Source of the DNA: Streptomyces sp. ML-6
GTDB taxonomy: Bacteria; Actinomycetota; Actinomycetes; Streptomycetales; Streptomycetaceae
Direction of reading: 5' to 3'
Length of the DNA stretch: 64,000 nt
Assembly (NCBI RefSeq): GCF_030116705.1
Contig: NZ_JAOTIK010000001.1
Coordinates: forward strand, 6,724,501 to 6,788,500
The notes beneath the pieces are model-generated. The model did no database searches and had not been told where the DNA came from. It was given only the letters and a program-made list of their open reading frames with translations. Every line of letters starts with the position of its first letter. Positions within the stretch are counted from its first letter, which is position 1. The position numbers and the translations under genes are program-made. Below, one piece after another: positions 50,837 through 64,000 of this stretch.

Positions 50837-50859
50837 GCGCCCTCGCTGTGGAGGTCCTC

Positions 50860-52677
50860 GTGTCACGTGCTGTTCCCCGCACCCGGTCCGGTCACCGGGC
50901 ACCGTCCCGGAAGCCGGCCGTGTACCTGGCCTCGGCCGCGCTCGTCGCACCCCTCCTCCTCGCCGGGGCGGGACGGGCGAGCGCCGACGGAACCGCCCCG
51001 TACACCGTCACCCCGCTGACGTTCACGACGCGGGTGGACGGGAAGTCGTGCACCGTCGACGCCGACCTGTACCGCCCCACCGGGACCGACGCGCGGCGCC
51101 CGGCCCCCGCCGTGCTCGCCACCAACGGGTTCGGCGGCAGCAAGACGGACGGCACGACCGACGCCATCGGCAGGGCGGTCGCCTCCCGCGGCTACGTCGG
51201 CCTGGTCTACTCCGGGCTCGGATTCGGCAAGTCGGGCTGTCTGATCACCCTCGACGACCCGGCCGTCGACGGCCGGGCGGCCACCGCCCTGATCGACTTC
51301 CTCGCCGGCACCCGCGCCGCCGACGACGGCACCCGGGCGGACTTCGTCACCCGGGACGGCGCCGGCGACCCCAGGGTCGGCATGATCGGCGGCTCCTACG
51401 GCGGCGCCGTCCAGATGGCCGCCGCGTCCGTCGACCGCCGCGTCGACGCCCTCGTGCCGCTGGTCACCTGGAACGACCTGGCCTACGCGCTCGCCCCGAA
51501 CAACGCCGGTACGCGCAAGGGCGTCTCGTCCGACACCGCCGGGGTCTTCAAGTGGCAGTGGACCAACGGCTTCTACCTGATGGGGGAGGGGCAGACGGTA
51601 CTGAACGCGAGCCTCGACCCGTCCCGGTTCAACAACCTCACCTGCCTCCACTTCGCGTCCCGGGCGTGCGACACCATCCAGCTGCTCAACTCCGGCCGCT
51701 ATCCCGCGGACCGGACGGCGAGGATGCTCGCCTACGCGCGCAGCGTCTCGCCCGTCGACTACCTGAGCCGGGTCGAGGCGCCCACGCTCCTCGTCCAGGG
51801 CCAGGCCGACAGCCTGTTCAACCTGAACGAGGCCACCGCCACGTACGAGGCCCTCAAGGCGCGGGGCACCACCACCAAGATGATCTGGCAGGCCTGGGGA
51901 CACAGCGGCGGCCAGGCGCCCGGTGAACTCGACCTGAAACAGGGCAACTTGGAGACCAGCTACGTCGGACAGCGCGTCCTGGCCTGGTTCGACCGCTACC
52001 TCCGGCACGACCGGAACGCCGACACCGGACCCGACTTCGCCTACTACCGCGACTGGCAAAGCGGCTACGGCACGGCGTCCTCCGTACCGGCCCTCTCGCG
52101 GAAGCTGTACCTGTCCGGCGACGGCAAACTCGTCGACGAGCGGTCCGAGGTGGCCCGGGGCAGCCGCCAGTACACCAACTGGCTCGTCCCGACCAGCCAT
52201 TCGGAGAGCTCCCTCGCCGGACTGCTCGGCCTGCCCGACTCCCGGCCGTACGACACCAAGGGCACCTACCTCGGCTGGACCAGCGCCCCGCTGCCCTCCG
52301 CCGTCGATGTCGTCGGCGCGCCGAGGGCCACCCTGAAGGTCGTCTCGCCGAGGACGGAACGGGTGCAGAACAGCGGGGACGCCGCCGACAAGCTCGTCCT
52401 GTTCGCCAAGATCTACGACGTCGCCCCGGACGGCGGCAGGACGCTGGTCAACCGGCTCGTGGCCCCGGTCCGGGTCCCGGACGTCACCCGGCCGTTCACC
52501 GTGCGACTGCCGGGCATCGTCCACCGGTACGAGGCGGGCCACCGGCTCGAGTTCGTGATCGCGGCGAGCGACACCGCCTACGTGGGCAACCGCGGGATCA
52601 AGCCGGTCACGGTGGTCAACGCCCCCGGGGACACCGGCGTACTGGAACTGCCGGTGGTCGGCGACCGGGTGGGGTGA
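50860..52677 (+). CDS. Secreted S15/CocE-type X-Pro dipeptidyl-peptidase-like hydrolase
   Basis: 605 residues. A signal peptide (Arg-rich start, VYLASAALVAPLLLAGAGRASA) is followed by an alpha/beta hydrolase with TNGFGGSKTDGTTDAIGRAV, nucleophile in MIGGSYGGAVQMAAA, aspartate in LLVQGQADSLFNL and histidine in AWGHSGGQAPGE. A C-terminal beta domain (APLPSAVDVVGAPRATLKV) matches the X-Pro peptidase C-domain. The GTG at 50860 has GGAGGT five bases upstream; an in-frame GTG at 50848 overlaps that site. It acts outside the cell, while the upstream four peptidases are cytoplasmic. Confidence 0.9.
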   Translation: MSRAVPRTRSGHRAPSRKPAVYLASAALVAPLLLAGAGRASADGTAPYTVTPLTFTTRVDGKSCTVDADLYRPTGTDARRPAPAVLATNGFGGSKTDGTTDAIGRAVASRGYVGLVYSGLGFGKSGCLITLDDPAVDGRAATALIDFLAGTRAADDGTRADFVTRDGAGDPRVGMIGGSYGGAVQMAAASVDRRVDALVPLVTWNDLAYALAPNNAGTRKGVSSDTAGVFKWQWTNGFYLMGEGQTVLNASLDPSRFNNLTCLHFASRACDTIQLLNSGRYPADRTARMLAYARSVSPVDYLSRVEAPTLLVQGQADSLFNLNEATATYEALKARGTTTKMIWQAWGHSGGQAPGELDLKQGNLETSYVGQRVLAWFDRYLRHDRNADTGPDFAYYRDWQSGYGTASSVPALSRKLYLSGDGKLVDERSEVARGSRQYTNWLVPTSHSESSLAGLLGLPDSRPYDTKGTYLGWTSAPLPSAVDVVGAPRATLKVVSPRTERVQNSGDAADKLVLFAKIYDVAPDGGRTLVNRLVAPVRVPDVTRPFTVRLPGIVHRYEAGHRLEFVIAASDTAYVGNRGIKPVTVVNAPGDTGVLELPVVGDRVG

Positions 52678-53500: not shown

Positions 53501-54151
53501 TCAGGTCGGGGGGACGCCGGGGTGCATCCAGCCGTCCTCCCGGACCCGCAGGGCCAGGTCGATCTTGGTGTAGGTCGGCCGTCCGGCGTCCTGGTACTTG
53601 GCCTTGACCCGGTCCAGGTAGTACTTCGCGGTGTTGGCGGTGATCCCGGCCCGGCGGGCGGTGGCCTTGAGGGTGAGCCCGGAGGCGTAGCACACGAGCA
53701 CCTCGCGTTCCTTCGGCGAGAGCTTCGGGCGGATGCCCTGGTCGCAGGCCCAGGCGAAGGCCAGTTCCGGGGAGTGCGCAGTGCCCCCGGCGGCGACCTC
53801 CTCGATCGCCTCGACGAGGACGGACAGGTCGTGGTCCTTGGTGAGGTAGCCGTCGGCGCCGTCCGCGATGGCGGCCACGATCCGGTCGCGGTCCGGCACC
53901 ACACTGATCATCAGCACCCGGCTGCCGGCCTCCCGCAGCCGGCGGATGTTCTCGGCCGACGGACGCCCGTCGCGCAGGACGAGGTCCAGCAGGACGACGT
54001 CGGCCCGCTCCCGCCGCCCGTCGAGCAGCTCGTCCACCGTGCAGGCGCAGCCCACGAGCCGCAGCCCCGGTACCCCGGCCAGCCAGGACCGGATTCCGTC
54101 GAGCAGCATCCGGTCGTCGTCGACCACGGCGACGGTGATCACCTCGGCCAT
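53501..54151 (-). CDS. NarL/LuxR-family response regulator of the lanthipeptide region
   Basis: 216 residues: a receiver domain (VAVVDDDRMLLDGI; phosphoacceptor Asp56 in DVVLLDLVLRDG; SVVPDRD; lysine in DGYLTKDHDL) and a C-terminal LuxR helix-turn-helix (LSPKEREVLVCYASGLTLKA, ITANTAKYYLDRVKAKYQ). Its start overlaps the histidine kinase gene by 13 bp, so the pair is co-translated. Divergent from the LanL gene, it is the probable pathway-specific regulator. Confidence 0.93.
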   Translation of the reverse strand: MAEVITVAVVDDDRMLLDGIRSWLAGVPGLRLVGCACTVDELLDGRRERADVVLLDLVLRDGRPSAENIRRLREAGSRVLMISVVPDRDRIVAAIADGADGYLTKDHDLSVLVEAIEEVAAGGTAHSPELAFAWACDQGIRPKLSPKEREVLVCYASGLTLKATARRAGITANTAKYYLDRVKAKYQDAGRPTYTKIDLALRVREDGWMHPGVPPT

Positions 54152-55260
54152 CTCAGCTCCACGCTCACACCCTCGCCGGGAGCGCTGTCCACGGTCGCGT
54201 GGCCCCCTATGCCGCGCATCCGCTCGTGCACGGAACGGGTGAGGCCGAGGCCCCCGCCGCCGCTCCCGGGCTCGAATCCCCGCCCCCGGTCGACCACGGT
54301 GACCACCAGCCGGCCGGAGTCCCCGGTGACCGTCAGATAGGCGTGGCCGGTGCCCGCGTGGCAGCGGACGTTGTTCAACGCCTCGGTCACGGCCCGGGCG
54401 AAGGGCAGGGCCACGTCGCCGGGCACCCTGGGCGGTTCGTGGTACCGGGCGGTCACCTGCAGCCCCAGCGCCTCCGCGGCCCGCACCGACTCCTCCAGCG
54501 CGGCGAGGAGCTCCGAGTCGGTCCCCTGGTCGTCCGTCTGCTCGACCAGCCGTCGCAGATAGGCCGCCTCGCGGGCGCATCTTCGCCGCATCTCGGGGGT
54601 GTTGGCGTCGATGCCGCCGCCGGAGATGGCGGTCAGGGTGGCGAGGACCGTGTCGTGCAGCGCCTGGTGGTGGGAGATCCGCTCCGCGTACCTGGCGCGG
54701 TGCGCCTCCGCGGCCAGCGCCCGCTCGTTGGCGGCGTCGAGAAGGGCGCCCTGCCTGCGGAAGTACCACCAGAGCACCCCGGAGACGACGGCCGAGAAGA
54801 CCAGGGCGTTCAGATGCCCTCCGGTCACGGCCGCGTCGGCGCCGACCAGCAGGTACCCGGCCAGGTGCGTCGCCACCAGGAGCGCGGTGGCGACGACGAC
54901 CAGCCGGATGGGGAAGGCCGCGGCCGCCATGGCCGCCGACGATCCGCCCAGCAGCATGACCCAGGCGATCGAGGCGGGAGTGTGCTCCCCGCCCCATAAG
55001 TAGGCGCAGAACGGGAGCAGGCAGCCGACCACGATCACGTCGATCCAGACCGAACGGGGAACAAGTCGCCCCTTCCGCCTGGCAGTTGTGTGGACCACGG
55101 CGCTGGAGGACAGGGCCGCGGCCAGGATCAGCCACTGGACCGGGCGATTCCACTGATGCTGGACGACGCCGGCGATCCCGGCGACGAGATGACTGCCCCG
55201 GTAGAGGGACGTGGCCAGAACCATGGAGGTCTGTGCACGGTGGAGCCCGGTTTCATCCAT
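54139..55260 (-). CDS. Sensor histidine kinase of the lanthipeptide region
   Basis: 373 residues. About six membrane helices (residues 40-195: VQWLILAAALSSSAVVH, VWIDVIVVGCLLPFCAYL, LVVVATALLVATHLAGYLLV, ALVFSAVVSGVLWWYF) precede a phosphoacceptor helix with ISHHQALHDTVLATLTAI and an ATPase domain (VTEALNNVRCHA, VVDRGRGFEPGSGGGGLGL). The region before LHD lacks the usual Arg-Glu of NarL-type kinases. The ATG at 55260 has GGAAGG seven bases upstream; an ATG at 55266 is too close to it. Confidence 0.9.
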   Translation of the reverse strand: MDETGLHRAQTSMVLATSLYRGSHLVAGIAGVVQHQWNRPVQWLILAAALSSSAVVHTTARRKGRLVPRSVWIDVIVVGCLLPFCAYLWGGEHTPASIAWVMLLGGSSAAMAAAAFPIRLVVVATALLVATHLAGYLLVGADAAVTGGHLNALVFSAVVSGVLWWYFRRQGALLDAANERALAAEAHRARYAERISHHQALHDTVLATLTAISGGGIDANTPEMRRRCAREAAYLRRLVEQTDDQGTDSELLAALEESVRAAEALGLQVTARYHEPPRVPGDVALPFARAVTEALNNVRCHAGTGHAYLTVTGDSGRLVVTVVDRGRGFEPGSGGGGLGLTRSVHERMRGIGGHATVDSAPGEGVSVELRWPR

Positions 55261-55643
55261 GTACATGCCTTCCCGTTCGCTGTCCGCAACCCCCCAGAAC
55301 GGGTGGTACACCGATCCCTCGGTGCACCGTTAACGTCACCCATGGCGGTCAGGGGGCGCCTCACGGCCACCATATGCGCGGCCGCGCGAGCGCTCTCCGA
55401 GAAATGCAGAAAGCTGATCATTTTGCCCGAACAGTTCTGATACTCCCGTAGTTGACTCCTCATCAGGTGATGTGGACGACCTCTCAGGAACAGCGCTTCC
55501 CGGCCAGTCGGCCGCCGGACCGGACCATCACGCCCCGGCACCGCGCGGGCAGCCCCGGCCGGCTCCCGGCCGCCCTCCCGCCTCCTCCCGTGGCAGTCCG
55601 ACCGCTCCCGCGCACCTCGATGCCGCACCCGGAAGGAAAACCC
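55261..55643. other. Divergent promoter region of the lanthipeptide cluster
   Basis: 383 bp between the histidine kinase and LanL starts. It is locally AT-richer near 55405-55460 (AGCTGATCATTTTGCCC, TTCTGATACTCCC), where the lanL promoter most likely lies, but I cannot assign -35/-10 boxes with confidence. An in-frame open extension of lanL to 55452 runs through Pro/Arg-rich sequence without a ribosome site and is not called. Confidence 0.5.
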
Positions 55644-58493
55644 GTGACCGCTGATGGCCAGGCACCCGGCGCCGATGGGTACTTCGTGGTGAGTACCACC
55701 CTGCTGCCCGGAATCGTCGAGGGCGTACTGCACCGGCGCGGCGCGACCGGATGGGCCGTCGACCGGGGCGACTTCTGGTGCTCGGTCCGCCCCCGGGGCC
55801 ACCGCGGCCCCGAGCAGGGCTGGAAGCTGCATCTGTCGGCCACCCCGCTGTCCGCGGCCCTGGTGCTGGCGGCGGCGTCCGAGGTGCTGATCGAGGAGCG
55901 GGCCTCGTTCAAGTTCGCGGGCAGCGTGGAACGCGTCGCCGAGCTGACGGGCGGCCGGGCGGACCGGGGCGGCGGCGGCAAGTTCATCACCGTGTACCCC
56001 GACGACCCGGACCACTTCCGCCGGCTCGCGCGGCGGCTGCACGGGGCGACCTTCGGGCTCCGGGGCCCCGGTATCCTCTCCGACCGGCGCTACCGCCCCG
56101 ACAGCCTCGTCCACTACCGCTACGGGGTGTTCCGCGGCGTGCGCACCATGACCAACGACGGCGACGCGGACGTCAGGCTCCGCCGGCCCGACGGGGGGCT
56201 GGAGAAGGACCGGCGCCAGGCGTGGCCGACCACGCCGGACTGGGCCCCGCCGCCGTTCCCCGACGATCCGGACCCCGCGAAACCACCGGCCCCCGCCCAG
56301 TCCCCGGCCAAGTCCCCGGCCGGGCCGCCGGTTTCCGCCGGGGCCCCGGCGCCGGCGAAGTCCCCCCGGAAGAAGCCGGTGGTGCTGCTCAACGACCGCT
56401 ACGTCGTCAGCAGGGCGATCCGGCACGCCTACAAGGGCGGCGTCTACCTCGCCACCGACCGCGACACCGGCCGGGAGGTGGTCGTCAAGGAGGCCCGCCC
56501 GCACGTGGGGGTGCGCATGGACGGCACCGACCTCCAGGACACCCTGCGCCACGAGGCCGAGCTGCTGGACCTGATGGCGCCGCTGGGCTTCACCCCGGCC
56601 AGGATCGACCTCTTCTCCCAGGGCGGGAACCTCTTCCTCGTCCAGGAACGCGTCCCGGGACAGACCCTGCGCGAGCGGATGCCGGAGCGGCCGGTGCGGG
56701 ACATGGCGGAATTCCTGGACCTGGCACGGCAGGTGGTGGACATCGTCGAAGGGGTCCACGGCACCGGCCACGTGCTGCGGGACCTCTCCCCGAACAACCT
56801 CATGGTCACCCCCGACGGCGAGGTGCGCCTGATCGACGTCGAGTACCTGGCCCGGCAGGGCGTCCCGGTCCGCCGCGGGTACACGCCGGGCTACGCCGGC
56901 CCCGAGATCAGCTCCCTGGTCGACTACGAACCCACCGCCCCCGAGTACGAAGGGGACCTCTACGGCCTCGGAGCCGTGCTGCTGCACCTGGTGGCGGGTG
57001 TGGACATGCTCCTCGTCCCCGACGAGCGCCCGGCCGGCGACCGCACGGACGCGCTGATCACCCTCGCGGTGGCCGACCACCCCTGGGCCCGCCCGCTGCT
57101 CCCCCTGCTGCTCGCGCTCTGTGCCGCCGACCCCGCCGAACGGTGGGACCTCACCCGGGTCCGGGAGGCACTCGCCGCCCCTGACCCCGGCCCCGCCGCC
57201 CCCGACCCCGGCCCCGCCGCCGACCCCGGCCTGCGCATCGCCGACGAGGAACGCGACCGGCTGATCTCCGACGGCCTCGCGTACCTGCTCCGCACCCGGG
57301 GCAGCGGCACCGGAGGGCACCTCTGGCCGATCAACGGCTTCGGGGCCACCACCGACCCGCTGAACGTGCAGTACGGCGCGGCCGGGGTCCTGGCGGTCCT
57401 CACCCGGGCCGCCGCGACCGGCGGCGACGCTCAACTGCGCGACGGAACGGCGGAGTTGACGCAGTGGATCCGCGAGCGGCTGGCCGATCCGTCCGCCGGA
57501 CGGGCCGCCGACGGGACGACCCTGCCGGGGCTGCACTTCGGCCGCTCCGGCACCGCCTGGGCCCTGCTGGACGCGGCCCGCCTGCTCGGCGACGAGACGG
57601 CGGAGGCGGAGGCGGCCGCGCTGGCCCGTACCGTCCCCGTCGACTGGCCCAACCCGGACATCTGCCACGGGACGGCCGGGGCGGGCATGGCCCAGCTGCA
57701 CTTCTGGCGGACCACCGGCGACCCGGAGTTCCTCGACCGGGCGGCCGCCTGCGCGAAGACGCTCCTCGCCGCCGCCGAGGACCACCCCGCCGGAGTGATC
57801 TGGCCGGTCCCCGCCACCTTCGATTCGAACCTCGCCGGGGCCCGCCACTACGGGTTCGCCCACGGCATCGCGGGCATCGGCGCCTTCCTGCTGGCCGCCG
57901 GGACCGCCACCGGCCGGGAGGACTTCCTCCGGGCGGCCCGCACGGCCGGCGACACCCTCGTGACGCTCGCCCGGGTCGCCGACGGGCAGGCCCGGTGGGC
58001 GGCCGGGGACCGCATCGCCGACGGCGTGACCGGACAGACCCACTGGTGCAGCGGCTCCTCCGGCATCGGCACCTTCCTGATCCGGCTGTGGCGGACCACC
58101 GGCGACGCCCGCCACCGGGACACCGCCGTGCTCGCCGCGGCGGGGGTGCGACGCGCGATGTGGTTCTCCTCGCCCGCCGCCTGCCACGGGCTGGCCGGCA
58201 ACGCGGAGTTCCTCCTGGACATGGCCGCGGCCCTCGGCGAGCCCCACTACCGGGACCTGGCCCGGGAACTGGCGCAGTGCATCCGCACCCGGACCGTGCT
58301 CAGGGACGGACTCCTGGTCGTCCCCGACGAATCGCTGGAGGCGGTCGTCGCCGGCTACCAGACGGGACTCGCCGGAACCCTCGGCATGCTCCTGCGCCTG
58401 CGCGACGGCGGCCCCCGGCTCTGGATGCCGGACCCCCCGGCACCGACCGCCCCCGCCGGACCGGACCTCCCGCTCGCGGCCGGTGCGGCATGA
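55644..58493 (+). CDS. lanL: Lanthipeptide synthetase LanL-type (lyase-kinase-LanC, class IV by zinc ligands)
   Basis: 949-residue trifunctional enzyme that phosphorylates Ser/Thr of a precursor, eliminates phosphate and adds Cys thiols. Residues 1-205: lyase domain. 210-250: Pro/Ala/Lys-rich linker. 255-520: Ser/Thr kinase with Lys282 (VVVKEARPH), catalytic Asp380 (LRDLSPNNLMV) and metal Asp398 (LIDVEYL). 545-935: LanC cyclase with His740 (YGFAHGIAG), Cys802 (HWCSGSSG) and Cys847-His848 (ACHGLAGNAEF), the zinc set. Class III LanKC enzymes lack these ligands, so class IV is favoured. I chose the GTG at 55644 because GGAAGGA lies six bases before it. The stop overlaps the peptidase start (ATGA). 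Confidence 0.92.
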   Translation: MTADGQAPGADGYFVVSTTLLPGIVEGVLHRRGATGWAVDRGDFWCSVRPRGHRGPEQGWKLHLSATPLSAALVLAAASEVLIEERASFKFAGSVERVAELTGGRADRGGGGKFITVYPDDPDHFRRLARRLHGATFGLRGPGILSDRRYRPDSLVHYRYGVFRGVRTMTNDGDADVRLRRPDGGLEKDRRQAWPTTPDWAPPPFPDDPDPAKPPAPAQSPAKSPAGPPVSAGAPAPAKSPRKKPVVLLNDRYVVSRAIRHAYKGGVYLATDRDTGREVVVKEARPHVGVRMDGTDLQDTLRHEAELLDLMAPLGFTPARIDLFSQGGNLFLVQERVPGQTLRERMPERPVRDMAEFLDLARQVVDIVEGVHGTGHVLRDLSPNNLMVTPDGEVRLIDVEYLARQGVPVRRGYTPGYAGPEISSLVDYEPTAPEYEGDLYGLGAVLLHLVAGVDMLLVPDERPAGDRTDALITLAVADHPWARPLLPLLLALCAADPAERWDLTRVREALAAPDPGPAAPDPGPAADPGLRIADEERDRLISDGLAYLLRTRGSGTGGHLWPINGFGATTDPLNVQYGAAGVLAVLTRAAATGGDAQLRDGTAELTQWIRERLADPSAGRAADGTTLPGLHFGRSGTAWALLDAARLLGDETAEAEAAALARTVPVDWPNPDICHGTAGAGMAQLHFWRTTGDPEFLDRAAACAKTLLAAAEDHPAGVIWPVPATFDSNLAGARHYGFAHGIAGIGAFLLAAGTATGREDFLRAARTAGDTLVTLARVADGQARWAAGDRIADGVTGQTHWCSGSSGIGTFLIRLWRTTGDARHRDTAVLAAAGVRRAMWFSSPAACHGLAGNAEFLLDMAAALGEPHYRDLARELAQCIRTRTVLRDGLLVVPDESLEAVVAGYQTGLAGTLGMLLRLRDGGPRLWMPDPPAPTAPAGPDLPLAAGAA

Positions 58494-60280
58494 CGCGCCC
58501 GCCCGACCGGATCAGCTTCCGGTTCTCGGCCCGGGCACGCCACGCGGCCTGCCTGGTGAGCACCGCGGAGGGCGGGTTCGTCCCGGCCCGCTGGGACCTG
58601 GGCGGCACGTCGCCGCGGTACCGGGAGGGCACCTCCACCGAGTCCACGGCGACCCAGGTCCTGCCGACCGACGACGGCGAACTGCTGCTGCTGCGCAGCG
58701 CGGTGGGCAGCGGACGCCACCGGCTCGCCCTGACCGGCCCCGACGGCGGGGCCGGCCCGGCCACGACGATCGCCGCCCGGGGACTGCGGCTGGTCCCGGG
58801 CGGCCCGCCGGACACCCTCGCCCTCGCCGTGGAGACCGACGCGGGAGGCCGCACCCGGGTGTGGCAGGTCAGGAACGAACCCCTGCGCCTGGCCCATCCG
58901 GTGATGCTGCCCGGCCGCATCACCGGCCTCCTGCCGCTGGACGAGGAGGGCATCCGGTACGTCACCGACCTCGGCCGGGCAGGCGGATGCCGCCCGGTCG
59001 TCCTGAACCTCCGGGAGGCGACCTGGGGAGGGTTCCTGCTGCCCGAGGGCGGGCACATCCACCGGGTCCTGCTGTCGGCCCCGCGCTCGGGGCTGCTGCT
59101 GACCGCGAGCGACCCCGGGGACGGGCGGCTGCGGATCGGCCGCACCACCGTCGACGGCCGCACCGCCCTGAACTTCCCCGAACGGCTCAACTCGCTCGAC
59201 GGCTCGGTGTTCCCGCTCGCCGCCGACCCGGCGGGCGAACGCGTGGCCCTGCGGGTCACCAAGGGGGCCGCGGCACGCCTGTTCCGCTACGACGTCGCCG
59301 ACGACCGGCCGTCCCCCACCCGGCTGCCCGCCGGAGCCGTCCACCCGGCCGCCGGATGGAACGAGCACGGCCTGCACGTCGTGTACGCCAACCCCGCCCG
59401 CCCCGCAGACCTCGTGACCGTCCCGGACGACCCCGCACGGCAGGGAACACTGCCCCCGCCCGCCCCCGCCGCCCGCACCGAATGGTTCGACACGCCCGAC
59501 GGCGGGTTCGAGGCCGTCTGCCTCGGCGACTGGCGCACCGCGGACACCGTGACCGTCGCCCTGCACGGCGGACCGGAGGACGCCTGGACCCTGGGCTTCC
59601 ACCCGGTGCTGCACCGGCTTTCCGAGGCCGGGACCGCCGTGGTGGCACCCAACCAGCGCGGCAGCACGGGCTACGGCCGGGCGCACACCTCGGCCGTGCA
59701 CGGCGCCTGGGGGGTCCCCGACCTCGCGGACATCCGCGCACTGGTGAGGACGCTGACGGAGCACCGGCCGCCCGGCGCGCAGCCCCCCGCCCTCCTGGGC
59801 GTCAGCTACGGCGGCTTCCTCGCCCTGCTGGCCGTGTGCGCCGACCCCCACGCCTGGTCCCGGTGCGCGGCGGCCGCGCCCTTCCTGTCCGCCCGGGGAC
59901 TGTACGAACGGGCGACACCGGCCGTGCGCGCCCTGATCGAGCGGCACGGCCTGGGCACACCGCCGGACGACGAACTCGGGCCCCGCGACGTCGAGTTGCT
60001 CGCCCACCGCATCAGGGTGCCGCTGCTCGTCGTCCACGGCACCGACGACCCCCTCGTACCGGTGGAGGAGACCCGGCGGCTGCGGAAACGGCTCATCGAG
60101 GCGGGGCGCGTGGAGCACACCCACTTCGCCTGCCTCGAAGGCGCGGGCGTCGGCCACGACCTCCTCCAGGAGCGTGCCGGAGCCGCACTCACCGACCGGC
60201 TGGTGACGTTCCTGACCCCCGGACCCGCGGCCACCGCGCGGCCCGCCCCCGATCTCACGGCCGCCCACGCGACCGTGTGA
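58490..60280 (+). CDS. S9-family peptidase of the lanthipeptide cluster (candidate leader peptidase)
   Basis: 596 residues. An N-terminal seven-bladed-propeller-like half (LPTDDGELLLLRSAVGSGRH, VFPLAADPAGERVALRVTKG) leads to an alpha/beta hydrolase from about residue 340: oxyanion VALHGGPEDAW, PNQRGSTGYGRAH, nucleophile Ser439 in LGVSYGGFLALL, aspartate in VVHGTDDPLVPVEE and histidine in GAGVGHDLLQE. No signal peptide, so it is cytoplasmic. Coupled to lanL by a 4-base overlap and followed by the precursor genes. Prolyl oligopeptidases trim some class III leaders, but neither precursor here contains proline, so specificity must differ. Confidence 0.88.
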   Translation: MTRPPDRISFRFSARARHAACLVSTAEGGFVPARWDLGGTSPRYREGTSTESTATQVLPTDDGELLLLRSAVGSGRHRLALTGPDGGAGPATTIAARGLRLVPGGPPDTLALAVETDAGGRTRVWQVRNEPLRLAHPVMLPGRITGLLPLDEEGIRYVTDLGRAGGCRPVVLNLREATWGGFLLPEGGHIHRVLLSAPRSGLLLTASDPGDGRLRIGRTTVDGRTALNFPERLNSLDGSVFPLAADPAGERVALRVTKGAAARLFRYDVADDRPSPTRLPAGAVHPAAGWNEHGLHVVYANPARPADLVTVPDDPARQGTLPPPAPAARTEWFDTPDGGFEAVCLGDWRTADTVTVALHGGPEDAWTLGFHPVLHRLSEAGTAVVAPNQRGSTGYGRAHTSAVHGAWGVPDLADIRALVRTLTEHRPPGAQPPALLGVSYGGFLALLAVCADPHAWSRCAAAAPFLSARGLYERATPAVRALIERHGLGTPPDDELGPRDVELLAHRIRVPLLVVHGTDDPLVPVEETRRLRKRLIEAGRVEHTHFACLEGAGVGHDLLQERAGAALTDRLVTFLTPGPAATARPAPDLTAAHATV

Positions 60281-60334: not shown

Positions 60335-60454
60335 ATGACCATCGACGTGGACGAGCTCCAGACGCTGGAGAGCGAGGAGGCGGTTGCCCTGGCCGCCTGC
60401 GGCATCACCTGCACCTGGACCTGTCGCATCACCAGCATCGAGCAGCAGCAGTGA
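60335..60454 (+). CDS. lanA1: Lanthipeptide precursor A1 (39 aa)
   Basis: Starts MTIDVDELQTLESEEAVALA (leader, acidic, no Cys or Pro), followed by the predicted core ACGITCTWTCRITSIEQQQ. The core holds three cysteines at 22, 26 and 30, each followed three residues later by threonine (CGIT, CTWT, CRIT). The leader segment DELQTLE resembles the LQxLE recognition motif of class III leaders. A near-perfect ribosome site (AGGAGGTGA) lies 8 nt before the ATG. The second precursor is 71% or more identical by eye. Exact leader-core boundary is inferred. Confidence 0.9.
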   Translation: MTIDVDELQTLESEEAVALAACGITCTWTCRITSIEQQQ

Positions 60455-60537
60455 CGCACCGGCGGCACCGGTCGGTGACCGCGCCCGGCTGCCGCACCCG
60501 TACGGCAACGACCTCTCATCGACGAAAGGAAAGCACC

Positions 60538-60657
60538 ATGATGACCATCGACGTGGACGAGCTGCAGACCCTCGAGGGCGAGGAGGCCGTCGCCCTGGCC
60601 GGCTGCACCCGCACCTGCACCTGGACCTGCACGATCACCAGCATCGAGCAGCAGTAG
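60538..60657 (+). CDS. lanA2: Lanthipeptide precursor A2 (39 aa)
   Basis: Begins with two consecutive ATG codons; from the second it reads MTIDVDELQTLEGEEAVALA, then core GCTRTCTWTCTITSIEQQ. The leader differs from A1 at one position (Gly for Ser) and the core keeps the triple Cys-x-x-Thr pattern (CTRT, CTWT, CTIT) and the central CTWTC and ITSIEQQ. AAAGGA lies 7 nt before the first ATG. Ends TAG. The variable core residues are Gly-Ile to Thr-Arg and Arg to Thr, so the products are sister peptides, possibly a two-component pair. Confidence 0.9.
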   Translation: MMTIDVDELQTLEGEEAVALAGCTRTCTWTCTITSIEQQ

Positions 60658-60753: not shown

Positions 60754-62553
60754 ATGACGTCCCCGCAGCGGCTCCTGCGGGCAGCCACCGCCCGGTCCCG
60801 GGGATGGTTCGCCCTCGCGGGCGCGGCGGCCGTCATCGGCTCCGCCGGCACGCTCGCCCTGCCCTGGACCCTGGCCACCGCACTCGACTCGGTCATCGGC
60901 GAACGGCCCTCCGCCACCCCCGTGTACGTGTTCGCCCTGGTCCTGGCGGTCGTGGTGGCCGCCGGGGCCCTGCAGACCCTGGCCGGCGGGACGTACGGCG
61001 CCGCGGCGGTGGCCACGCTGCGCCGGGACCTGGCCGTGCGCGCCCTGGACGCCGGGATCCCCGGGGCGGCGCGGTTCCCGGCGGGCGACCTCGCCGGCCG
61101 CCTCTCGGCGGGCTGCTCCCAGGCGGGCCAGGCCGGATACACCGTGGTCACCGCCGCGGCCTCGGTGCTGACGTCGCTGGGCGGCGTGGTCGCGCTGTGG
61201 CTGCTGGACTGGCGGTTGGGCCTCGCCTTCCTGCTGGGCGTGCCCCCGCTGGTGCTGATCGCCCGCGCGTTCATGAACCGCAGCTCGCACCTGTTCCTCT
61301 CCTACCAGGAGACGCAGGGCAGGATCTCCGCGCTGCTGCTCGAAGCGCTGGGCGGTGCCCGGACCATCGGCGCGAGCGGCACGGCGGACGCCGAGATCTC
61401 CCGGATCCTCCGTCCGCTGCCGGAACTCTCCGGGACGGGGCACCGCATCTGGCGCCTGCAGCGCGACACCGGCTGGCAGGTCGGCCTGCTGGTCCCCGCC
61501 GTGGAGGTACTGGTCCTCGGCATCGGCGGCCTCGCCCTGGTGAACGGGGACATCAGCGCGGGGCAACTCGCCGCCGTGGTGGGCTACACCGCGGTCGCGA
61601 TGTCCCTGCTCGACCAGCTCGACGCGCTCTTCTCCCTCGGCGTCTCGCTCGCCGGGGCGCGCCGGGTCGCCGAGGTCACCGACCAGCCGGTGGCCGCCCC
61701 CGGCACCCGGACGGAGACCGGGCCCGCGACCGGCGCGGTGACGTTCTCGGGGGTCGGGGTCCGCTCCGGCGACCGGGTCGTCCTCGACGCCGTGGACCTC
61801 GACGTCCCGGCCGGCACGTCGCTGGCGGTGGTGGGCCGGTCCGGCTCGGGCAAGAGCACCCTGGCCGCGCTGCTCGGCCGGCTGCGTGACCCGGACGAGG
61901 GCACGGTGTGCATTGACGGCCACCCGCTGCGCGAACTCGCCCCGCACACCCTCCGTTCCCTGGTCGGATACGCCTTCGAACGCCCCGCCATGCTCGGCGG
62001 AACGATCCGCGGCATGATCGCCTTCGCCCGCCCCGACGCCTCCGACGACACGGTGGAGGCCGCCGCCGCGGCGGCCCACGCGGACGACTTCGTACGGCGG
62101 CTGCCGCACGGCTACGACACCCCCCTGTCCGACGCCCCGCTCTCGGGCGGCGAGGTCCAACGGCTGGGCCTGGCACGGGCCCTGGTGCACGACCCGGCCG
62201 TGATCGTCCTCGACGACGCCACGTCCAGCCTGGACACCGCCACCGAGGCACGGGTCGACGACGCCCTCACGGCCGCCTGGTCCGGCCGCACCCGCGTCGT
62301 GATCGCGCACCGGGTCTCCACCGCGGCCCGGTCCGACCTGGTGGCCTGGCTGGACGAGGGGCGGATCCGCGCCGTGCGACCGCACCACGAACTGTGGCGA
62401 CTGCCCGAGTACCGGGAGCTGTTCGCCGCCGCGACCCCTCACGCACAGAAGGCGGCGACCCCTCACCCGCAGGAGGCGGCGACCCCCCACGCACAGGCGG
62501 CGGCCCTCCACCCGCAGGAAGCGGCGACCCTCCACCCGCAGGAGAAGGCATGA
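60754..62553 (+). CDS. lanT1: ABC exporter half-transporter 1 (membrane domain plus ATPase)
   Basis: 599 residues: about six membrane helices (residues 15-310) then an ATPase with Walker A VVGRSGSGKSTLAALLG, signature PLSGGEVQRLGLARALV, Walker B VIVLDDATSSLD and H-loop VVIAHRVS. No N-terminal C39 peptidase domain, so it exports but does not cleave the leader. The last 40 residues are a degenerate tandem repeat of AATPHPQE-like units. GGAGGA lies before the ATG. Probably a heterodimer with the next gene, whose start overlaps its stop. Confidence 0.92.
   Translation: MTSPQRLLRAATARSRGWFALAGAAAVIGSAGTLALPWTLATALDSVIGERPSATPVYVFALVLAVVVAAGALQTLAGGTYGAAAVATLRRDLAVRALDAGIPGAARFPAGDLAGRLSAGCSQAGQAGYTVVTAAASVLTSLGGVVALWLLDWRLGLAFLLGVPPLVLIARAFMNRSSHLFLSYQETQGRISALLLEALGGARTIGASGTADAEISRILRPLPELSGTGHRIWRLQRDTGWQVGLLVPAVEVLVLGIGGLALVNGDISAGQLAAVVGYTAVAMSLLDQLDALFSLGVSLAGARRVAEVTDQPVAAPGTRTETGPATGAVTFSGVGVRSGDRVVLDAVDLDVPAGTSLAVVGRSGSGKSTLAALLGRLRDPDEGTVCIDGHPLRELAPHTLRSLVGYAFERPAMLGGTIRGMIAFARPDASDDTVEAAAAAAHADDFVRRLPHGYDTPLSDAPLSGGEVQRLGLARALVHDPAVIVLDDATSSLDTATEARVDDALTAAWSGRTRVVIAHRVSTAARSDLVAWLDEGRIRAVRPHHELWRLPEYRELFAAATPHAQKAATPHPQEAATPHAQAAALHPQEAATLHPQEKA
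62434..62550 (+). repeat. 24-bp degenerate tandem repeat at the 3' end of exporter gene 1
   Basis: About five in-frame units encode ATPHAQK, AATPHPQE, AATPHAQA, AALHPQE and AATLHPQE. The repeat stays in frame and places the ATG of the next gene directly behind it. Confidence 0.8.
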
Positions 62554-64000
62554 GCGAGCCGTCATCGTCGGCCCCCGCCCTGGCACCCCCGCCCGCACCC
62601 CCCGCCCCGGCGGCGCACGGCCCCGCCACCGGACCCGCCGCCGGCCCCGCGCCGGTGGGCCTGCGGATGCTCGGCGGCTTCGTCCGGCGCCACCGCGCCG
62701 CGACTGCGGCGGTGGCGGGATGGTCCGTCATGGAGTCGCTCCCGGCGCTCTTCTCCGGCCTCCTGGTCGCCGCCGCCCTGGACCGGGGCTTCCTCGCGGG
62801 GCGCCCGGCCACGGGCATGTTCTGGCTCGGGCTGCTGGGGGCCGCGATGGTGCTGCGCGCCGTCATGACCCGCGAACTCACCCCGCGACTGGGCCGGCTC
62901 GTCGAGCCCCTGAGGGACGAGCTGGTGACCGAGGTGGTCTCCGGCGCGGTGCGCCGGGCCGTCGGCGGGGCCCGGGGCGACGCCGGGGCGGGGGTGGCAC
63001 AGCTGACGGTCCAGGTCGAGAGCGTGCGCTCGCTGGTCTCCGCCCTGCTGCGCTCGGCCCGGCAGCTGGGCGTCTCCCTGGTGATGGCCCTCATCGGCCT
63101 CGCCGCGCTGTCCGCGCCGGTGGCGGCGGCGACCCTGCCACCGGTTCTCCTCACCCTGGTGCTGTGCGTACCGAGGCTGCGGAGACTCGCCGGACGACAA
63201 CGCGCCCAGCTGCGGGCGGAGGAACGCCTGACCACGACCGCGGGCGAGGCGTTCGGCGGCATCCGGGACGTCGTCGCGTGCGGCGCCCGCGACCGGGTGG
63301 CGTCCGACATCACCGCCCGGATCACCGGCCACGAGGACGCCTGCCGTGCCACCGCGCGCACGATGTCCGGCAACACCCTGCTGGTGGCGGCGGGCAGCCA
63401 GCTGCCGCTGCTCGCCCTGCTCCTCGCCGCCCCCGCCCTGCTGCGCGGGGGCACCCTGTCGGTGGGTGAACTCCTCGGGGCCACCAGCTACCTGATGAGC
63501 GGGGTGACTCCCGCGTTGCGGGCCCTCGTCGCCGTCCTCGGCTCCTGGGGGGTGCAGCTGGACACCGTGCTGCGCCGGCTGGGCGGCGCCATGACACCCC
63601 CCGCCCCCGCGCCCGCGCCGGGCCGCACCCCGCTCTCCGCGGACCTCTCGCTGGAGGGGGTCGGCTACGCGTACGGGCCGTGCGCCGCCCCGGTGATCGA
63701 CGACCTCTCCCTGGACGTCCCCACCGGCTCCCACCTCGTGGTGGTCGGCCCGAGCGGGGTCGGCAAGTCGACCCTGACCACGCTGATGGCGGGGCTGGCG
63801 GTCGTGGACAGCGGCCGGCTGACCCTGGGGGGAGTACCGGTCGAGGAGACCGACCGGGCATGGCTCCGCCGCGAGGTGACGCTGATTCCCCAGGAGGCGT
63901 ACGTGTTCACCGGTACCGTCCGGGACAACCTGCGCTACCTGCGGCCGGAGGCCACCGACGCCGAACTGACGGCCTCGCTGGCGGCGGTCGGCGCCCTCGA
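62550..64000 (+). CDS. lanT2: ABC exporter half-transporter 2 (3' end outside window)
   Basis: The frame is open from the ATG at 62550 to the window end (483 residues so far). A Pro/Ala-rich N-terminus of about 35 residues precedes six membrane helices (SVMESLPALFSGLLVAAALD, VSLVMALIGLAALSAPVAAA, LLVAAGSQLPLLALLLAAPAL) and the start of an ATPase with Walker A VVVGPSGVGKSTLTTLMAG and Q-loop VTLIPQEAYVFTGTVRDNL. The signature and Walker B motifs should lie just beyond 64000. ATGA overlap with exporter 1 supports a heterodimer. Confidence 0.9.
   Translation, partial: MSEPSSSAPALAPPPAPPAPAAHGPATGPAAGPAPVGLRMLGGFVRRHRAATAAVAGWSVMESLPALFSGLLVAAALDRGFLAGRPATGMFWLGLLGAAMVLRAVMTRELTPRLGRLVEPLRDELVTEVVSGAVRRAVGGARGDAGAGVAQLTVQVESVRSLVSALLRSARQLGVSLVMALIGLAALSAPVAAATLPPVLLTLVLCVPRLRRLAGRQRAQLRAEERLTTTAGEAFGGIRDVVACGARDRVASDITARITGHEDACRATARTMSGNTLLVAAGSQLPLLALLLAAPALLRGGTLSVGELLGATSYLMSGVTPALRALVAVLGSWGVQLDTVLRRLGGAMTPPAPAPAPGRTPLSADLSLEGVGYAYGPCAAPVIDDLSLDVPTGSHLVVVGPSGVGKSTLTTLMAGLAVVDSGRLTLGGVPVEETDRAWLRREVTLIPQEAYVFTGTVRDNLRYLRPEATDAELTASLAAVGAL

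Follow-up and report, generated by a model that had tools for sequence, protein, structure and literature searches.

Tandem Cys-x-x-Thr cores of putative class IV lanthipeptide precursors and a proposed pattern of abutting rings that join each Cys to a later residue

How would a lanthipeptide cyclase close rings on a core in which every unit begins with Cys? The question is raised by two small genes in a 64,000-nucleotide stretch of DNA from Streptomyces sp. ML-6, here called the window. The original prediction described them as two precursors with three tandem Cys-x-x-Thr units each, and both open reading frames and the motif positions were confirmed. The core of the first precursor, A1, is CGITCTWTCRITSIEQQQ (motif at positions 60398-60432), and that of the second, A2, is CTRTCTWTCTITSIEQQ (60604-60638). 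As had also been pointed out, neither core offers a Ser/Thr upstream of its first Cys; in the leader, the sequence places the nearest one 9 residues upstream of that Cys in A1 and 12 in A2.

The complete layout is MTIDVDELQTLESEEAVALAA-CGITCTWTCRIT-SIEQQQ for A1 and MMTIDVDELQTLEGEEAVALAG-CTRTCTWTCTIT-SIEQQ for A2, which has 38 amino acids when translated from its second ATG. Purine-rich stretches that look like ribosome-binding sites precede both starts (AGGAGGTGA for A1 and AAAGGAA for A2). The genes are separated by 83 bases, contained in 60335..60657, and their alignment identifies them as diverged copies. A search of the whole genome of the strain with the A2 protein returned A2, A1, and one chance-level match (E 2.41). 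In the DNA of the window, the pattern encoding (CxxT)3 is present twice, at the two positions given above, and none of 100 dinucleotide shuffles contained it. Both leaders match NCBIfam NF038157 ("ALQxL family class IV lanthipeptide"), a model whose 17 positions all lie in the leader and do not cover the core. Two other matches, of A1 to a proteasome repeat (E 0.13) and of A2 to the radical-SAM-target repeat TIGR04114 (E 0.21), were below the cut-off and were taken as chance. With a class IV leader and a core of Ser, Thr, and Cys in short proteins encoded near a LanL enzyme, A1 and A2 are best explained as class IV lanthipeptide precursors.

The enzyme itself reached 1016.8 bits with the class IV model NF038150 (cut-off, 650) and 446.2 bits with the class III model NF038151, short of the cut-off of 575. 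Lyase, kinase, and LanC-like cyclase are combined in one protein that scores as LanL and whose true start may lie inside the open reading frame listed in Table 1. Its cyclase carries the Cys and Cys-His zinc motifs (HWCSGSSG and ACHGLAGN), which are kept in 23 of 24 aligned LanL enzymes. The sole exception is the second enzyme of genome G100, 33% identical, which reads QCCGLAG. Class III enzymes are reported to lack these zinc ligands. A class III (labionin) system was considered and rejected, as the zinc motifs are present and neither core contains Ser-x2-Ser-x(2-5)-Cys. By sequence, the solved relatives of LanL are 8car, named only as a Ser/Thr protein kinase, and class III LanKC chains. The genes are ordered lanL, S9 peptidase, A1, A2, and two ABC transporter halves, and a kinase and a regulator lie upstream in divergent orientation (Table 1).

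Table 1. Features of the lanthipeptide locus in the window and the matches on which their assignments rest
Feature	Position	Strand	Evidence and remarks
Putative X-Pro dipeptidyl-peptidase	50848-52677	+	PF02129, PF08530; 2.8 kb upstream of lanL
Response regulator (receiver + LuxR-type HTH)	53501..54169	-	PF00072, PF00196; start approximate
Sensor histidine kinase, divergent from lanL	54139..55311	-	PF02518; adjoins lanL in near relatives too
lanL, class IV lanthionine synthetase	55452..58493	+	NF038150; Pfam RamC_N, Pkinase, LANC_like
S9 protease (prolyl oligopeptidase / acylaminoacyl peptidase family), candidate leader peptidase	58490..60280	+	PF00326, 79.8 bits
lanA1, putative precursor gene	60335..60454	+	39 aa; NF038157, 26.3 bits (cut-off 19)
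lanA2, putative precursor gene	60538..60657	+	39 aa; NF038157, 26.5 bits (cut-off 19)
ABC transporter half, membrane + ATPase	60754..62553	+	PF00005, PF00664
Second ABC transporter half	62547..63998 (beyond window end)	+	PF00005 above cut-off; PF00664 below cut-off

Near relatives of the precursors keep the three-unit pattern. A2 found matches at E 0.01 or better in 10 of 392 genomes of the same genus, its own included. Close matches came from five genomes besides its own, and these relatives retain C-x-x-T-C-x-x-T-C-x-x-T-S. With Cys1 taken as position 1, the core of Streptomyces sp. ADI96-02 (G100/L087), CTATCAWTCAITSIEQQ, has Ala in place of two of the extra Thr and keeps the Thr of every unit, so that Thr6 and Thr10 are dispensable. 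Among eight distinct three-unit cores, Cys1, Thr4, Cys5, Trp7, Thr8, Cys9, Thr12, and Ser13 are invariant, and positions 2, 3, 6, 10, and 11 vary. This set includes CTWTCTWTCSITSFQQ from Glycomyces xiaoerkulensis (L120), where LanL is 44% identical. Trp7, in the middle ring of the pattern proposed below, and Ser13, after the last unit, are thus constant in eight of eight cores though the ring grammar does not require them.

To place these cores in a wider context, we surveyed LanL loci. NF038157 had matches in 20 of 392 genomes of the genus and in 8 of 394 genomes of the class, and LanL was above the cut-off in 19 of the 21 of these genomes that were searched for it. An alignment of eight LanL sequences served for a genome scan, from which the best 80 of 587 confirmed stretches (those closest to the window's group) were kept. 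Applied to the 80 loci, a leader rule blind to the tandem pattern yielded 85 distinct peptides; these came from 69 loci, and the other 11 gave none. Wider rules found tandem cores at five of those 11 (L104, L111, L115, L120, and L161), which stand outside the statistics given below and are unlabelled in the LanL tree. The tandem group is defined here by at least three Cys and by a Ser/Thr at the end of every inner Cys-to-Cys segment, and A1 and A2 belong to it. Tandem precursors were located at no fewer than 24 of the best 80 loci, a frequency that differs from that among all LanL loci because the 80 were chosen from the 587 as best matches. The core is not the isolated curiosity for which it had been taken. 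Together with L120 and L104, the 24 loci span six actinobacterial families (Streptomycetaceae, 14 loci; Streptosporangiaceae, 7; Micromonosporaceae, 2; Pseudonocardiaceae, Thermomonosporaceae, and Glycomycetaceae, one each). A protein search with a 43-amino-acid relative returned two close relatives of the precursor, each 43 amino acids long, both of which NCBI names ALQxL family class IV lanthipeptide.

The grammar of these cores consists of Cys-x(2-5)-Ser/Thr units without a spacer, so that the Ser/Thr closing one unit is followed immediately by the Cys that opens the next. This is seen, for example, in CEKTCTATCGITCTATQA (G162), CRLSCKVSCQYTCAATGA and CGYSCQVSCPNTCAVTGR (both G134), CPSSCSWSCSWSCSWTNV (L152), CTNSCLLTCGYSCDITCDITSNPF with five units (L108), CSYTCGYTCQVTFKPTK (L135), CGWLITCGITCGDATCDVTCDITKKI (L093), and CQYTCLILTCLIFTIS (L126). 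Cores have three to five units, and successive Cys are separated by 3, 4, 5, and 6 residues in 64, 17, 13, and 4 cases. The Ser/Thr-Cys junction, which is itself the selection criterion, stays constant while single units change in length. When no leader rule was applied, 67 of 1938 small frames with at least three Cys at the 80 loci fitted the inner rule; by eye, the leader motif is present in 39 of the 67, and the others look like chance frames.

Two sets of cores were used to examine the grammar statistically. For the main set, peptides of L113, L116, and L142 (doubtful or spurious) were removed by hand before the main tests, and 25 peptides from the window and further genomes were added by hand, some of which had been picked up through their resemblance to A2. 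Near copies of included peptides, matches of the DvalAA-43 type, and one CSCC peptide (L044) were left out by hand. This gave 107 peptides in 70 core clusters. The repeat set comprised the 85 leader-rule peptides with none added or removed, in 55 clusters. In the main set, a Ser/Thr closes 132 of 157 inner segments, compared to 57.4 (standard deviation, 5.7; maximum, 77) in 2000 shuffles, a statistic that, like the others in this section, marks important residues and not bonded pairs. The leader-rule set behaved alike (96 of 122 versus 44.9; standard deviation, 5.0; maximum, 60). The inner rule is obeyed throughout by 33 of the 70 clusters. In 32 of these 33 tandem clusters a Ser/Thr is found 3 to 5 residues after the last Cys, and in 28 it lies exactly 3 after it; 5000 shuffles of the tail averaged 10.8 such clusters and never exceeded 21. 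This test is independent of the choice of tandem cores, because the last Cys takes no part in the selection. The leader-rule set gave 17 of 21 (shuffled mean, 6.8; maximum, 15). Clusters that share a genome are not independent; with one cluster per locus the count was 13 of 16 (shuffled mean, 5.3), which 1 of 5000 shuffles attained. A chance origin of the motif and of the grammar was rejected on the shuffle tests.

For a pairing analysis, each Cys was given its own Ser/Thr 2 to 8 residues away, with eight leader residues allowed upstream. Later Ser/Thr can serve every Cys in all 33 tandem clusters (131 of 131 Cys), and earlier Ser/Thr can do so in 11 (101 of 131 Cys). The corresponding figures in the leader-rule set are 21 and 5 of 21 clusters. 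For the 37 non-tandem clusters, later partners suffice in 17 and earlier partners in 11. Four cores have equal numbers of Ser/Thr and Cys; in one of them, CGYSCQVSCPNTCAVTGR, four Cys face four Ser/Thr, and forward pairing serves two of the four Cys. The 11 tandem clusters that forward rings could serve fully, and the 20 of 33 that do have a Ser/Thr within eight residues before Cys1, speak against an all-reverse rule, and mixed ring directions along a core are possible.

Judging from the conserved residues, LanL probably makes three contiguous, non-overlapping reverse rings, Cys(i)-Dhb(i+3), in A1 and A2. The enzyme would bind the leader and would phosphorylate and eliminate Thr4, Thr8, and Thr12. 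Its zinc cyclase would then add to each Dhb the thiol of the Cys three residues earlier. The predicted product carries three abutting four-residue methyllanthionine rings (1-4, 5-8, and 9-12), in each of which the Cys lies on the N-terminal and the Dhb on the C-terminal side, and ends in a linear SIEQQ tail. Dehydration may or may not extend to Ser13 and the additional Thr (position 6 in A1; positions 2, 6, and 10 in A2). The S9 peptidase would remove the leader, possibly leaving Cys1 at or near the N terminus, and the two ABC halves would export the product. One ring per unit is preferred because it is the simplest pattern that uses every Cys, the conserved Thr, and the varying unit lengths. 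The direction from Cys to a later Dhb is supported by venezuelin, the class IV precedent. More broadly, we lean towards the view that A1 and A2 stand for a widespread class IV branch in which three to five small rings abut. All of them would join a Cys to a later dehydro residue in a chain that can grow by single units, the LanL cyclase imposing a single direction on the whole core, as a mirror of nisin-like T-x-x-C rings.

Known systems offer parts of this arrangement. Rings A and B of nisin (class I) abut without a linker, with Thr before Cys, and are made by LanB/LanC enzymes; the rings proposed for the window would mirror these abutting T-x-x-C rings. Prochlorosins and synechococsins come from class II LanM enzymes and are not known to contain a tandem unit of the window's kind. 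For their enzymes, ProcM and SyncM, both ring directions and non-overlapping rings are documented. For venezuelin (VenL/VenA), Goto and others assigned rings by tandem MS of Cys variants as Cys34-Dhb39, Cys45-Dha49, Cys32-Dhb43, and Cys50-Dhb31; three of the four run from Cys to a later residue, Cys50-Dhb31 is forward, and the authors asked for confirmation by NMR. Like the window, the system has a LanL enzyme and, as proposed here, mostly Cys-first rings, and its small Cys45-Dha49 ring lies directly before Cys50. Unlike the window, it has a core of the type TCECVGLLTLLNTVCIGISCA (also seen at L149), overlapping rings, one of them forward, and no tandem units; the venezuelin-type pattern (TCxCxGLLTLLNTVCxGxSC-like) is absent from A1 and A2. 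SflA (Ren 2020), also of class IV, is described as having two non-interlaced rings, in which it resembles the proposal. Its leader is described as cut at PDLLK, which was not found in the Cys-containing small frames of the retrieved LanL loci. The LanL product of Streptomyces sp. DvalAA-43 is reported to have three dehydrations and two possibly overlapping rings. It is probably encoded by the cluster at L109, whose core (CRWHTSGC), unlike A1 and A2, does not follow the tandem grammar. A 2022 paper counts two earlier characterized class IV lanthipeptides and adds two more.

Other ring patterns can be drawn on the same cores. One alternative keeps the direction from Cys to a later Dhb but has the rings nested or interlocked (say, 1-12 or 1-8 enclosing shorter ones), so that the peptide would be globular like venezuelin or cinnamycin. 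The overlapping rings reported for venezuelin, itself a class IV product, among them the long Cys32-Dhb43, speak for such a topology. However, the peptides vary by whole units (three to five Cys) and in the length of single units, and nesting gives no reason for the Ser/Thr that 28 of 33 clusters have exactly 3 residues beyond their last Cys. These observations are suggestive, and we consider nested rings unlikely. Of the two possibilities raised in the original prediction, reverse closure from i to i+3 is the one best supported by the relatives and the venezuelin precedent, and short overlapping rings are less likely. Reverse rings might also form at some positions only, either because partial dehydration of Thr leads to a mixture or because Ser13 rather than Thr12 closes the last ring. 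The invariant Ser13 of the three-unit cores would fit the latter, but other groups have Gly, Gln, Lys, Asn, or other residues after the last closing Ser/Thr, and we give this reading very little credence.

Ordinary forward rings (Thr6-Cys9 and, in A2, also Thr2-Cys5), with one or two Cys left free or disulfide bonded, would follow the commoner direction of closure in lanthipeptides. A2 has a Thr at position -3 of both Cys5 and Cys9, so that two of its three Cys could be served in this manner, but only one of three could be in A1; later residues can serve all three Cys in either core. Moreover, Thr6 is replaced by Ala in G100/L087, A1 and the two L091 cores carry Gly or Ala at position 2, and 13 of the 33 tandem clusters have no Ser/Thr within eight residues before Cys1. 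Forward closure is, in our judgment, decidedly improbable. Seven-membered rings between adjacent Thr-Cys pairs would account for the strict junction. Ser/Thr does occupy position -1 of 100 of the 131 Cys in the 33 clusters, 98 of them due to cluster selection, and the unselected figure is the 132 of 157 inner segments given above. Such rings, however, would leave Cys1 without a partner and give no role to the Ser/Thr at +3 of the last Cys (28 of 33). We know of no seven-membered ring of this kind in any characterized lanthipeptide and regard this as the least credible of the readings.

How the leader might be removed is suggested by the neighboring S9 gene. FlaP is a prolyl-oligopeptidase-family protease of class III clusters. 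The S9 protein of the window has acylamino-acid-releasing enzymes as its best solved matches and GVSYGG in its translation, and its gene sits between lanL and the precursors. S9 homologues were found near lanL at 17 of 24 tandem loci versus 19 of 56 others, or 22 of 29 versus 14 of 51 when L104, L111, L115, L120, and L161 are moved to the tandem group. The S9 gene was rejected as tandem specific, homologues being present at other loci as well. Pro directly before Cys1 was likewise rejected as a general S9 cleavage mark; it occurs in 11 of the 33 tandem clusters, and A1 and A2 have Ala and Gly there, respectively. A prolyl-oligopeptidase-family protease named LanPB is described for class III clusters in PMC7268733. 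We infer that the S9 protein is the leader protease.

The wider neighborhood was tabulated for 28 loci, namely the 24 tandem loci plus L086, L104, L115, and L120. Both ABC halves are present at 23 of the 28. The histidine kinase is found at seven (59 to 97% identical), only beside the lanL genes nearest to that of the window. The closest lanL in the scan, that of Streptomyces sp. sk2.1 (L086), is 94% identical over 855 columns, and its contig stops short of the precursor region. The X-Pro dipeptidyl-peptidase of the window could trim exported peptides; within the flanking DNA of the 28 tabulated loci, which extended to 10 kb at most, no homologue of it was found.

On the LanL tree, the tandem label is scattered among other cores. 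It requires nine changes for 28 tandem rows, of which at least six are forced by well supported branches, compared to a mean of 23.5 after shuffling, the five loci named above being unlabelled. A single cyclase clade carrying tandem cores was rejected, as the tree does not support one origin. Since tandem and other cores are mixed on it, the design was gained or lost more than once, or else the enzymes are tolerant.

The class IV lanthipeptides characterized so far are few. If ring partners can be read from the core, as they perhaps can here, the question of what sets ring direction in lanthipeptide cyclases becomes testable with one enzyme and few peptides. Natural variants of three, four, and five units, and cores in which the number of Ser/Thr equals that of Cys, would aid that question. 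A modular chain of four-residue rings, if true, would further offer a simple scaffold on which cyclic peptides could be designed. What would be new is the tandem all-reverse core; reverse closure as such, class IV enzymes, and the leader family were known before. Text searches of the accessible literature turned up neither a class IV core of the type (CxxT)n nor a product built of abutting reverse rings, and the sequences of these peptides may well appear in the tables of the precursor survey PMC7268733.

Several loci of the survey showed further variety in their cores. In Kutzneria sp. 744 (L118:14405-15270), six different precursors, four fully tandem and two nearly so, lie behind one LanL and S9 homologue, a natural library for one enzyme. 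In each of the four precursors at L009 (G388), the core opens with two C-x-x-T units near its start and continues into a tail, 16 to 39 residues long, that is rich in Asn, Val, and Thr and in two cases contains a further Cys. At L099 and L100 (Geodermatophilus and Actinophytocola), the short cores CRCTCHTAE and CKCTC lie approximately 4.5 kb upstream of LanL; they cannot form the tandem rings and, if truly precursors, would represent a different core type. Finally, ALQxL precursors at L102, L114, L129, and L018 (G168) have CSCC or CLCC cores after Pro/Thr-rich stretches, another core type within the ALQxL leader family.
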